Positions 60,722 to 64,000 of a DNA stretch of 64,000 nucleotides are shown here, piece by piece; position 1 is the stretch's first letter; every line of letters starts with the position of its first letter. The translations under genes were made by a program, and so were the position numbers. The DNA comes from Epilithonimonas sp. JDS. Lineage in GTDB: Bacteria; Bacteroidota; Bacteroidia; Flavobacteriales; Weeksellaceae. The stretch covers positions 1-64,000 of the forward strand of contig NZ_JAJSAX010000007.1 of assembly GCF_021261315.1 (NCBI RefSeq). The letters run 5' to 3'. Under the pieces are notes generated by a model. The model saw nothing but the letters and a program-made list of their open reading frames with translations, did not search any database and was not told the DNA's origin.

Positions 60722-60736
60722 GCTTGTGGTTTTTTG
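60707..60736. terminator. Terminator overlapping the stop codon
   Basis: AAACCACAAG and CTTGTGGTTT arms enclose a 6-nt loop that includes the TAG stop. A T-run follows on the plus strand, and an A-run on the left gives bidirectional use. Confidence 0.8.
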
Positions 60737-60783
60737 TTTGAATTTATTCAGCTGCTATATTTAATAATGCTGTTATTCCTAGA

Positions 60784-61149
60784 CTATTCAATTTTATGGA
60801 TCTGCTTATATACTCCGATCTGAGTTTTCAGTGAAAGAATTTCTTCATCCCTTTCTTTTAATTGTTCCCGGAGTGCTTTTTCCTTTTCCGTTTCGAAATC
60901 CACATCCAGTTTCTGCCCCAGATACATCAGGAAATTAAACTGTATCGCTCTGCTTAGTCGCCACAGGATCTTGGTCTGCAGCGATGATTGTTTGAAGTAT
61001 TGGTTCAGCGTTGTGGGGATGATGCCGAGGTGATCTGCCACATCTTTTTTCTTCAGGTTTTGTTGTTTGATCTCCCAGTGCACCAGATTACCAATATGCA
61101 AAGGATCTGACTCCTCTTTTTGTGAAAATTTTTTTGCAGTTGTTTCCAT
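60784..61149 (-). CDS. Small HTH DNA-binding protein with C-terminal coiled coil
   Basis: A 121-residue protein. Residues about 17-65 resemble an XRE/phage-repressor HTH (IGNLVHWEIKQQNLKKKDVADHLGIIPTTLNQYFKQSS). Residues about 85-121 form a charged coiled coil, likely for dimerisation. It has no catalytic motif. Its start lies 38 bp from an array of at least seven TGG-N9-CCA sites (61187-61382), suggesting it or a relative binds there and autoregulates. There is no partner toxin gene. Alternatives are a plasmid-like partition or phage-type regulator. I did not find a matching named family. Confidence 0.72.
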   Translation of the reverse strand: METTAKKFSQKEESDPLHIGNLVHWEIKQQNLKKKDVADHLGIIPTTLNQYFKQSSLQTKILWRLSRAIQFNFLMYLGQKLDVDFETEKEKALREQLKERDEEILSLKTQIGVYKQIHKIE

Positions 61150-61186
61150 ATCTGTATTTATTAGTTTATTATAAAGCTATTATAAG

Positions 61187-61382
61187 CTGGTTATAAAGAC
61201 CAAGTGGGTAATTGATTTTAATAAGTCTGCTGGTTAAAATGCCTAATTATGTTGGTAAAAATGACCAACTTAATTGGTTAAGAAACTGTGGTAAGTTGGT
61301 GTTAAAAACCAACTTAGTTATTATTTATTGTTATTTACTTGGTTAAGATAGCCAAGTATTTTGGTTGTTTTAACCTGATTTT
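61187..61382. repeat. 22-bp iteron-like array of TGG-N9-CCA sites
   Basis: TTGG or CTGG starts occur at 61187, 61230, 61252, 61274, 61296, 61339 and 61361. The steps are 43, 22, 22, 22, 43 and 22 bp, so all lie on one roughly 22-bp lattice with two degenerate positions. Five or more units contain TGG-N9-CCA or near variants, a 15-bp dyad. The array directly precedes the small HTH gene and ends at a terminator. The regular phase suggests cooperative protein binding on one DNA face. Confidence 0.8.
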
Positions 61383-61385
61383 ATC

Positions 61386-61411
61386 AAAAAACTCCGCTTA
61401 TTTGCGGAGTT
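61386..61411 (-). terminator. Terminator of the 162-residue hypothetical gene
   Basis: AACTCCGC and GCGGAGTT arms around a short loop are followed on the minus strand by a U-run. It separates that gene from the repeat array. Confidence 0.8.
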
Positions 61412-61436
61412 AGGAAGTTTTGCCGGTGCCGGGCTT

Positions 61437-61925
61437 CTACTCCGGATTGGTAGGTGTTTTGCCAGTGCCGCCTTGCCCTGCAAAGCGCTGCTTGAGCTGG
61501 TTGTAGACGGCATCGGAACCTGCCACGCCCGCCTCTGCAGCAGAGGCGAACAGTTTGTAAAGTGTCAAAGCGCCAACGTAGGCTTCGCTGCCTGCCAGGA
61601 GTTGGGTGTCCTGCAATTTTTCTCCCAACTGGTTATGAAGTGCAATCAGTTCGTCCAGCTGGCTGAATAGCGTGAGGTCTGTCTGCATGGCTGTTGGGGA
61701 AACGTAGGCAGGCAGGAGAGCGGCGTTGTTCACCCCTGCAGAGATGGCATCTTCTGTAAAGGTTTTGTTGTTGACGTCTATAGCCGGCAGGCTGCTGCGC
61801 TCCTCGGTGGTCAGCCCAAGAAGGAATGACAGGTTGGTGAGGATGGTTTGGTAAGCTGTTTTTACTGCAGTGATTTGTGCAGGAGTCGCCGTGATATTAA
61901 GGCGATTGTTTGTAAGGTTTGACAT
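61437..61925 (-). CDS. Hypothetical helical protein
   Basis: A 162-residue protein rich in Ala, Leu, Thr and Gln, with heptad-like helices and no signal peptide or transmembrane segment. I recognise no family. The ATG at 61925 (MSNLTNNRLN) is preferred over a longer in-frame reading with a hydrophobic N terminus in AT-rich leader DNA. The gene appears more GC-rich than its surroundings. Its C terminus ends GTGKTPTNPE; after the TAG stop, eight more in-frame codons (KPGTGKTS) repeat the GTGKT motif before TAA. Confidence 0.68.
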   Translation of the reverse strand: MSNLTNNRLNITATPAQITAVKTAYQTILTNLSFLLGLTTEERSSLPAIDVNNKTFTEDAISAGVNNAALLPAYVSPTAMQTDLTLFSQLDELIALHNQLGEKLQDTQLLAGSEAYVGALTLYKLFASAAEAGVAGSDAVYNQLKQRFAGQGGTGKTPTNPE

Positions 61926-62226
61926 AATTGTGTTTTTAAGTAAAATTATATTTCGTTGTCTAAGTAAAATTAAAATAAATATTGATATGACCAAACGGAT
62001 TGATGGAAATTTTTAATTGTTTTTGTCTTATTGGCAATTGATTTAATTTTTTTGCGTTTTAATTTTCTGTTAATTGGTGTTTTGTGTTAAATTATTGTGA
62101 TGTGTGTATTGATTTTTATAATTAATTGAAAAATAATTATAAAATAATGTTCATTTTACGGTTTACCGTAATGTTTGTATTGTGAAAAATATTATTTTTA
62201 TCACACTAACTAAAAACATTTTTTTT
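61926..62226. other. Divergent AT-rich promoter region
   Basis: A 301-bp spacer between two divergent genes. It is strongly AT-rich and contains one clear palindrome at 62156-62171. I see no RNA gene or terminator. Confidence 0.5.
62156..62171. promoter_or_regulatory. Perfect palindrome upstream of the glycine-rich lipoprotein gene
   Basis: TTACGGT and ACCGTAA arms with a 2-bp centre lie 55 bp before the ATG at 62227. Next to it TTTG at 62174 could be a -33 element. A dimeric repressor site is a plausible reading. Confidence 0.5.
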
Positions 62227-63741
62227 ATGATGAAAACCTATTTATTCTGGTTTGCTATATTAGCATTCCTTCTGTTGGGCTGTAGGAATGACAATTTCAA
62301 TCCTAATGACACCAACAGTAACCATCAGGCTTTAAAGTTCCGGATTGTCCCAAAATCGGAAATACCGAAGATCATTGATGAACTGCAGGCGAAGACGGAT
62401 CACTTCAAAGTCCCATTGAAAAATCTTTCTTCTTCGATTGGGAAAACGGAAACTGTGTTTGGAGAGATCAATACGAATTACATTATTGAAACTACTAACG
62501 GCACAGATGAGATTTATTACACATTCGGTGTAATCCCAAGTGCAGCGTATGCTGCTGAAACCTACAATCTGGAAGTGCAAGCAAATGGTACAAACACTGC
62601 TATTGCCAAAATATTCGTTTATGAGCCGACGGCAGAGTGGGCACTGAACGGAAATAATAATTACTTGACATTTTCTGGGAGTAAAAAAACCTATTCATTA
62701 GACGGGACTCTAGAAGATACAGTAACGTACCTTGCCGGAATGCCTAATTGTGACCCTCCGGTGCCATGTCCGGATTGTCCTGGACCGTCTACTCCTGGTG
62801 GTGGAACCGGAGGAAATGGCGGTGGGATTCCTGGCGGTGGAGCTGGTGGAGGCGGTGGGACTGGTGGGGGCTCGGGGGGCGGCACGACTGGTGATGGTGG
62901 TGATGGCGGCGGTGGGGGCGGTGGTGGTACGCAATGCCCCGTATGTGTGACGGTAGACCCACAAAGCGGAAACTGTACTCAATGGATTATGGTAACTTGT
63001 TCTGGAGGATTGGTTGGAAAATTAATTAAAAACTGCCCTAAAAATGGGAATCTAGGTGGCGGCGGTGGAATCGTGATTTATGATCCAAACAAATCGCCCT
63101 GTGCACGAACCAAAAAAATGATTGAAAATAGTGATTTGAAAAATGTAGTGCAGGATCTTAAAACCCATATTGCAAATGGAGCAACCGGAGAGAAAGGATG
63201 GAAACTCAATAAAGTTGGCAGTCCAACACAAACGACAGAAAATGGGGATCACAGTGTGGATTTTGGAGATCCTTCTTTATTGAATGGAGGTTATCATAAC
63301 CATACAGGAACAAAAGTTGATGTATTTTCGCCAACAGATATAGGAACATTGATTGAAATCGCCAGATATAATGGTGCTTCTGATCCTAATAATGCATTTA
63401 TGGGACTTGTGGCACCAAATAATGTTCATTATGTTATCCGTTTTGGAGATACTCATGCAGGTTTACCAATTACGGGAAGCTATTCTCAGACGCAAATTGA
63501 AATTTGGAAAATTGATCAAATAACATTATGGCAACAATTGTTAATGAGTGATAATTATTATTCATTAATTAGCGGAAAAAAAGTGCTGAATGCGAAAGGT
63601 CTAGAAAGAATTCTTTTTGATACATTAGAAAAAATGGGATTAAAAAATAAAGTTAATTTACTCAAAATTGATGAAAACAATTCAGTAAGTATTATTGTAC
63701 AAAATTCTGATAAATCTACTATTTCAATTCCTTGTCCTTAA
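62227..63741 (+). CDS. Lipoprotein with glycine-rich linker and JAMM-like C-terminal domain
   Basis: A 504-residue lipoprotein (lipobox LLLGC). An N-terminal domain (about 20-170) is followed by a cysteine-flanked glycine-rich linker (about 185-245) and a C-terminal domain (about 290-500). In the latter, GYHNHTGTKVDVFSPTD contains HxH-x8-S-x2-D, close to the JAMM/JAB metalloprotease motif H-x-H-x7-S-x2-D. A Glu lies upstream (GEKGWKLNK). I recall similar domains at the ends of flavobacterial surface proteins, so a secreted peptidase or polymorphic-toxin-like effector is possible but unproven. A DUF6705 gene follows 14 bp later. Confidence 0.68.
   Translation: MMKTYLFWFAILAFLLLGCRNDNFNPNDTNSNHQALKFRIVPKSEIPKIIDELQAKTDHFKVPLKNLSSSIGKTETVFGEINTNYIIETTNGTDEIYYTFGVIPSAAYAAETYNLEVQANGTNTAIAKIFVYEPTAEWALNGNNNYLTFSGSKKTYSLDGTLEDTVTYLAGMPNCDPPVPCPDCPGPSTPGGGTGGNGGGIPGGGAGGGGGTGGGSGGGTTGDGGDGGGGGGGGTQCPVCVTVDPQSGNCTQWIMVTCSGGLVGKLIKNCPKNGNLGGGGGIVIYDPNKSPCARTKKMIENSDLKNVVQDLKTHIANGATGEKGWKLNKVGSPTQTTENGDHSVDFGDPSLLNGGYHNHTGTKVDVFSPTDIGTLIEIARYNGASDPNNAFMGLVAPNNVHYVIRFGDTHAGLPITGSYSQTQIEIWKIDQITLWQQLLMSDNYYSLISGKKVLNAKGLERILFDTLEKMGLKNKVNLLKIDENNSVSIIVQNSDKSTISIPCP
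62796..62935 (+). repeat. G-rich tract encoding the glycine linker
   Basis: About 140 bp dominated by GGT, GGC, GGG and GGA codons in an AT-rich neighbourhood. Runs of three to six G recur on the coding strand, enough to allow G-quadruplex folding. It encodes the Gly-rich linker. Confidence 0.7.
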
Positions 63742-63755
63742 CGAAAATAAACCCT

Positions 63756-64000
63756 ATGAAAAATATTTTATTATTAAGCTTTATAGTTGCAATAGTATCG
63801 TGTAAAGCGCAACAGACATATCCATTAAGCCAATCAGCGGTTGACATGCCAGAAAATTCATATTTTAAAGATTTTAATAACGAATTGGATCCTTATATCG
63901 GAACTTGGAAAGCGAGTTTCAATGGGAAACTAATAACATTAAACATTAATAAAGAATTGGAAAGAACATTTTCCTTACTTGGAAAATATTATTTAACAGA
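63756..64000 (+). CDS. DUF6705 family lipoprotein (partial, cut by window end)
   Basis: The first 81 codons of a protein that continues beyond the window. The N terminus is a lipoprotein signal (VAIVSCKAQQ). It continues with TYPLSQS and the segment LDPYIGTWKASFNGK, typical of DUF6705 proteins of Chryseobacterium. These usually occur as strings of paralogues after larger lipoproteins. The start lies 14 bp after the stop of the preceding gene, so they are likely cotranscribed. Confidence 0.78.
   Translation, partial: MKNILLLSFIVAIVSCKAQQTYPLSQSAVDMPENSYFKDFNNELDPYIGTWKASFNGKLITLNINKELERTFSLLGKYYLT

Follow-up and report, generated by a model that had tools for sequence, protein, structure and literature searches.

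What is the role of a regularly spaced row of short DNA repeats that lies directly in front of a small helix-turn-helix (HTH) gene in Epilithonimonas sp. JDS? The row is found within the window, i.e. the whole stretch of 64,000 nucleotides that was analysed, whose source genome comprises 4.17 Mb. Read along the minus strand, the locus consists of a gene termed P, a terminator-like hairpin, the array of repeats and the HTH gene (Table 1).

Table 1. Features of the locus, in positions of the window.
Feature	Position	Strand	Description
HTH-array-P unit, approximate extent	60739..61937	.	from the ends of flank homology and from DNA homology to E. caeni
HTH/coiled-coil protein, 121 aa	60784..61149	-	Cro/C1-like; presumed array binder
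HTH leader/promoter region	61150..61186	-	sigma-70-like match at 61197-61168, overlapping the nearest array unit
Phased array, 22 bp	61187..61382	.	units TTGGT-N7-ACCAA-N5; nine lattice positions, two of them degenerate
Intrinsic-terminator-like hairpin	61390..61411	-	separates the array from the P gene
P gene, 162-aa acidic protein	61437..61925	-	third part of the module; pI 4.8

The preliminary description of this DNA had placed seven repeat starts at positions 61187, 61230, 61252, 61274, 61296, 61339 and 61361. All of them were found there, five reading TTGGT and two CTGGT. Given the form of the units, the half-sites alternate in orientation; on the HTH-sense strand the units read ACCAA-N5-TTGGT-N7. 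That most units carry a TGG-N9-CCA dyad is true but barely so, the dyad being exact in four of the seven (61187, 61252, 61296 and 61339). The steps from 61187 to 61230 and from 61296 to 61339 measure 43 bp each, and the array therefore represents a 22-bp lattice with two 21-bp slips. Between 61151 and 61400 the motif TGGT occurs 8 times compared to an expectation of 1.16, with one of the eight copies lying off the lattice inside a GTGGT at 61288. The number of TGGT pairs in phase with 22 bp (± 1 bp) was 19, and 0 of 20,000 mononucleotide shuffles gave as high a value. In the 400 bp that precede the HTH gene the autocorrelation had its maximum at a lag of 22 (z = 4.9), equalled by 0 of 200 dinucleotide shuffles. 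Tandem Repeats Finder at a minimum score of 30 did not report the array; it returned no more than an AT-rich row with a period of 11 bp (61167-61198), which touches the edge of the array. An ungapped repeat finder detected array copies at spacings of 22, 43 and 44 bp.

The array lies 38 bp from the HTH start at 61149, a distance that had been given correctly before. The HTH protein is basic (pI 8.75) and matches the model HTH_3 with an E-value of 1.2e-4 and 22.4 bits, which is below the cut-off of 23. Its coiled coil is presumed to be C-terminal, as judged by eye. PDB sequence searches with the P and HTH profiles provided nothing significant (best E 0.42 and 0.26, respectively), and weak ParB-like, HigA, DicB and Csx1 matches (E 0.003 to 0.03, far under the cut-offs where these exist) were dropped. 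A terminator had also been described on the far side of the array, where it was thought to fence the array off. The hairpin is present, but gene P behind it belongs to the arrangement, which this reading had missed. Given the hairpin between them, transcription from P is not expected to run into the array. No second copy of the window array was found in its own genome (next best E 0.06). Single TTGGT-N7-ACCAA sites with at most one mismatch numbered 282 genome-wide versus 242 for a reversed-pattern control, a count by which a regulon of dispersed single sites is unsupported. The window array thus far appears to be a dedicated array and not an obvious regulon.

Homologues of the HTH protein were collected at several taxonomic levels: in 73 of 320 genomes of the window's family (E <= 1e-3, mostly weak matches), in 15 of 395 genomes of the order (E <= 1e-5), in 28 of 299 genomes of the genus of G444 (E <= 1e-8) and at 8 loci in a scan of named genome contigs, with up to 6 copies per genome. 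The stronger matches were represented by 60 stretches, to which we added the window and the loci L031-L038, leaving many weak matches aside. Removal of L031, L032 and L035 as duplicates or near-duplicates provided 66 loci, and 64 remained after setting aside L139 and L142, which hold too little upstream DNA. Upstream of the HTH gene a period of 21 or 22 bp, or its double, was detected at z >= 3.5 in 54 of the 64 loci, compared to 5 of 485 other genes of the same loci. At z >= 5 the corresponding numbers were 43 of 64 and 0 of 485. Conservation of the array together with the HTH homologues, which the preliminary description had named as support for a cognate system, was thus observed, and the array sequence tracks the HTH sequence (see below). 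The strongest lag was 21, 22, 42, 43 or 44 in 61 of the 64 loci, the peaks of L106 and L121 among these not being significant. Close homologues mostly have a period of 22 bp and distant ones a period of 21 bp or a doubled one of 42-43 bp.

Ten of the 64 loci fell below z = 3.5 or peaked at another lag, so that some HTH homologues are without a detectable array. Four of these were slightly under the threshold (L088, L089, L128 and L143), and four had peaks at 28 (L036), 31 (L129) or 41 (L135 and L140). L106 and L121 showed no array; the HTH protein of L121 lacks its N-terminus, and in L106 the HTH gene is preceded at 4 bp by the end of another gene. For ordinary Xre genes (PF01381, 4 genomes) an upstream phased array was found in 0 of 28 cases using mononucleotide shuffles; these stem from 33 matches, 30 of them with a locus and 2 of those without a usable frame, and a few frames may not be the HTH gene. 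The HTH protein shares its fold with the Xre/Cro-C1 regulators, whose ordinary members in the 4 genomes differ in lacking such an array. Judged by these comparisons the array is no local oddity but recurs with the HTH gene in different genomic settings.

The flavobacterial -7 promoter element has the consensus TAnnTTTG. Within the last 90 bp before the HTH gene this motif was present in 18 of the 64 loci compared to 3.4 expected from shuffles; it is missing in the window and in 45 of the other 63 loci. In 9 of the 11 loci nearest to the HTH profile it lies about 30 bp from the HTH start, at or just past the end of the array. The position of the array end beside the motif in these loci suggests autoregulation. 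The arrays measure up to the full 400 bp examined.

Is the sequence of the units related to that of the HTH protein? An array could be delimited at 53 loci, and for these the 5-mer similarity of the arrays correlated with HTH identity (Mantel r = 0.54, 0 of 2000 permutations). The Spearman coefficient of this comparison was 0.33 overall and 0.16 over the 1181 pairs with less than 60% HTH identity. By eye, ACCAA-type half-sites are mostly kept where the HTH helix reads LPTTLNQYF or LPTGLNEYF, with L109 (LPTTLNGYF) as an exception, while RPKGLTAYC pairs with CCCT-type units and ADST..RY with units containing TAGCATAAAG. Most paralogues within one genome have differing arrays: in four genomes all paralogue pairs below 80% HTH identity had array similarities of 0.13-0.64. 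The closest pairs reached 0.96 (L092-L095, from one genome and near-identical in array and HTH) and 0.78 (L118-L120). For 8 of 10 listed paralogues (L092, L093, L095, L115, L118, L120, L124 and L130) the nearest array in another genome stands beside an HTH gene that is at least 75% identical; the best-matching arrays of L094 and L109 in other genomes do not belong to a close HTH. Common descent contributes to the correlation, which in these comparisons is one of co-inheritance and not of binding, and since the loci are related they do not represent independent events. Because the array co-occurs with the HTH gene and its unit sequences follow HTH relatedness, its likeliest role is that of a cognate binding platform for the HTH protein, possibly an autoregulatory one.

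Clustering of the neighbouring genes revealed P as the one recurrent family besides the HTH. In 30 of the 66 loci a co-oriented P gene precedes the array (at a distance of 2.1 kb in L097), while the next commonest neighbour families occur in 5 loci each. P gave no match above threshold in Pfam, NCBIfam and PDB, and in PHROG a weak match only, to a family of unknown function (best E 0.0017). P was not found in the other 36 loci, most of which still carry an array; in 6 of the 36 the contig ends before any upstream gene. Such loci, together with the reach of the array into the putative HTH promoter region and with dedicated sites that form no obvious regulon, would suit a pure autoregulatory operator array, where the HTH protein sets its own level via many cooperative sites and P is a passenger. 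P co-diverges with the HTH, however, the identities of the two proteins being correlated with a Pearson coefficient of 0.83 (0 of 2000 permutations). Moreover, arrays that fill up to the 400 bp examined seem to go beyond the needs of autorepression.

Among 316 genomes of the window's family, 122 contained relatives of P; in a sample of 316 genomes from across the phylum, 27 did. At the best-matching loci of both scans (L152-L177 and L242-L271) that lack an HTH of the query family, phased DNA was found at z >= 3.5 in the 350 bp downstream of P in 35 of 51 cases and in the upstream DNA in 0 of 52, which a purely autoregulatory array of this HTH would leave unexplained. The remaining 16 of the 51 loci include L163 with a peak at 41, nine loci with an array-like stretch that is farther off from P or weaker (L169, L172, L174, L175, L176, L248, L249, L265 and L267), and L152, L153, L255, L264, L266 and L268, where no array was found downstream of P. 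In L255 and L256 P is flanked by a cas1-like gene on one side and a cas4-like gene on the other (named by eye), with a 43-bp periodic stretch behind P in L256 and none in L255. An Xre gene of another family is found near P in varying orientation in L156, L159, L169, L172, L174, L176 and L177. In L156 and L177 it is convergent to P, so that the array is outside the Xre promoter. Given this layout and the many array-bearing P loci without an HTH of the query family, operator function cannot be general, and we consider a purely autoregulatory array with P as passenger to be rather unlikely.

Instead we favour, with a probability of about 0.6, a role of the array as a dedicated binding platform for the adjacent HTH/coiled-coil protein, which would bind as a dimer on each dyad, with P as an effector. 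A platform acted on by P is preferred because arrays behind P without an adjacent HTH gene are inexplicable as HTH operators. The dimers would be arranged along one face of the DNA, one every two helical turns, and the coiled coil would join neighbouring dimers into a cooperative nucleoprotein row. As the array reaches into the putative HTH promoter region, its occupancy would repress or tune HTH transcription. P, insulated by the terminator and yet co-inherited, is proposed to be the effector, working either together with the loaded array or upon it.

A position after the 3' end of P, as seen for the arrays, would also be expected for extragenic repeats of the REP/BIME type or for a structured RNA behind P. 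In L157, L162 and L171 the first units resemble part of the terminator hairpin, and the terminator-like hairpin just after the P stop codon looks by eye as if made of inverted array units. The second P gene of the window's genome (at G000:C21) is followed by an array with a partial relative elsewhere in the genome. This relative is a solitary 22-bp array accompanied by neither a P nor an HTH gene (L284, G000:C12:389828-390254) between a receptor-like gene and uvrA (names by eye), and it fits a trans-acting binder. Apart from this one partial relative at C12, neither of the two arrays showed dispersal of the REP/BIME type in the genome, the window array being single-copy. In the window a terminator stands between P and the array, and the constant phasing of 21 or 22 bp with changing sequence would suit DNA rather than RNA. 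Rfam matches remained far under the gathering scores; the ARRPOF match was dropped because its 27.3 bits compare to a gathering score of 127.2, and on a shorter stretch it attained 19 bits and was truncated at the end. Taken together we regard REP/BIME repeats or a structured RNA as very improbable. Two further interpretations were dropped: a coding function of the arrays (21 bp corresponding to 7 codons), because close homologues use 22 bp, and intrinsically curved A-tract DNA, considered for L155, because other arrays (L172 and L271) are GC-rich. The 21-bp arrays of L165, L246, L250 and L265 hold a frame open and form heptad-repeat ORFs that could be annotated as proteins. Near the second P locus, at L285 204300-204652, a 24-bp repeat within an ORF encodes an 8-residue protein repeat of the NPxFNR type.

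We also compared the genomic setting of the module between related genomes. For 8 of the 9 related genomes compared, flank homology stops at 60733-60739, and for the ninth at 60773. E. caeni carries a module elsewhere in its genome with DNA homology over 60786-61937 (82% identity across 1155 bp). Its HTH gene (L031 3001-3362) is frameshifted near residue 90, with the upstream array still there, and the module is therefore dispensable. In the window the module is located between a RidA-hypothetical gene pair and asnB (names by eye). The same site is empty in four related species (L205, L206, L210 and L211). In L207 (960-1990) it is occupied by an HU-HIG gene together with a 22-bp array and an Xre gene, and in L204 (920-1807) by a 244-aa unknown gene with a 21-bp array. 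The terminator palindrome of the empty site flanks the cargo on both sides in the window's contig (60700-60739 and ~65249, L209), L202, L204 and L208; by exact match no second copy was found in L203 and L207. From these comparisons the RidA-asnB site is an insertion hotspot at a bidirectional terminator.

An empty site in four species, other array modules at this site in two others and flanking genes that otherwise differ between most HTH loci would be in agreement with a small mobile or selfish element, in which the array serves as a site for the mobility of the 1.2-kb P-array-HTH unit. This unit, however, contains no recombinase, and its array is internal rather than terminal. The duplicated terminator encloses a larger cargo and not the HTH-array-P unit itself, and some P loci keep the same neighbour across species (L162, L170 and L171). 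We therefore consider the mobile element to be an improbable explanation. Regarding the remaining cargo, the hotspots of L203, L207 and L208 also carry lipoprotein and DUF6705-like genes. The window encodes at 62182-63998 a lipoprotein with a glycine-rich middle followed by a DUF6705 protein (Pfam, window only); the pairs in L207 and L208 resemble these by eye but have other C-termini and look like a polymorphic cassette.

The preliminary description had likened the array to plasmid iterons and partition sites. Such a membership was not borne out, as the plasmid and phage collections searched gave no matches and the module contains no replication or NTPase gene. No tblastn match to the window HTH was obtained among 72,556 plasmid and 50,697 phage records; likewise none was obtained for the window P against the plasmids and for one P relative against plasmids and phages, all being single-sequence searches that distant relatives can escape. 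The HTH profile had no match in viral contigs, and neither HTH nor P matched a Rep initiator family. P and HTH, the sole recurring families beside the array, do not match an NTPase model.

What the module does have in common with partition systems is a tandem array beside the gene of a small DNA-binding protein, its binding being presumed here. The single-protein partition system Par of pSK1 combines an HTH with a coiled coil and an upstream repeat array; it is a plasmid system without P. The repeats of Omega-parS are short heptad repeats. In Omega-parS of pSM19035 (PMC5016525) one binder occupies direct and inverted repeats overlapping promoters, which resembles the module, but the binder is a ribbon-helix-helix protein and the system is plasmid-borne. 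Similarly, in ParR-parC of R1 and in TubR-tubC the array lies beside a small autorepressing binder at its own transcription unit (PMC5016525); small DNA-binding protein and tandem sites correspond to our locus, while the autorepression is theirs. The module differs from both by being chromosomal, by the absence of a ParM or TubZ NTPase, by the unrelated partner P and by its period of 21 or 22 bp.

A centromere-like or chromosome-organising site, at which HTH protein and array form a partition-type complex with P as partner, would explain this layout of parC/ParR and tubC/TubR (PMC5016525) as well as the phased half-sites and the presumed coiled coil. Little likelihood is left to it given a module without NTPase and without matches in the plasmid and phage collections searched, up to six HTH copies in one genome and, at E <= 1e-8, an HTH in only 28 of the 299 genomes of one genus. 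On the features tested the module is not a member of a partition family, though it may work like a partition or an operator complex.

Returning to the binding platform with P as effector, relatives of P across the phylum have phased arrays next to them even where this HTH is lacking, so that the wider system probably consists of P, a phased array and an array-binding HTH protein of some family, acting in cis or in trans. The hotspot of L207 provides a possible variant of this arrangement with its HU-HIG gene, although P itself has no HU-HIG Pfam match. Work on HU-HIG proteins of Bacteroidetes and on 22-bp repeats in Porphyromonas gingivalis may contain related observations. A description of such a system was not found in the open-access library searched. 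The arrangement points to an undescribed chromosomal system. More tentatively, and with appreciable doubt, one may picture a system spread over the Bacteroidota and built from a ~160-aa P protein, an array phased at two helical turns and diversifying HTH/coiled-coil loaders in cis or trans. This would constitute a new nucleoprotein platform with lock-and-key co-evolution of array and binder, whose modules are exchanged at hotspots with HU-HIG variants of the same plan.

For the biology of these bacteria the finding means that P gains a physical partner, the phased DNA array, through which the function of P becomes open to direct tests. HTH-array pairs are numerous and differ in their units, with several in some genomes; they form a natural data set for the specificity of HTH proteins and the co-evolution with their operators, and they are a possible source of orthogonal operator arrays.
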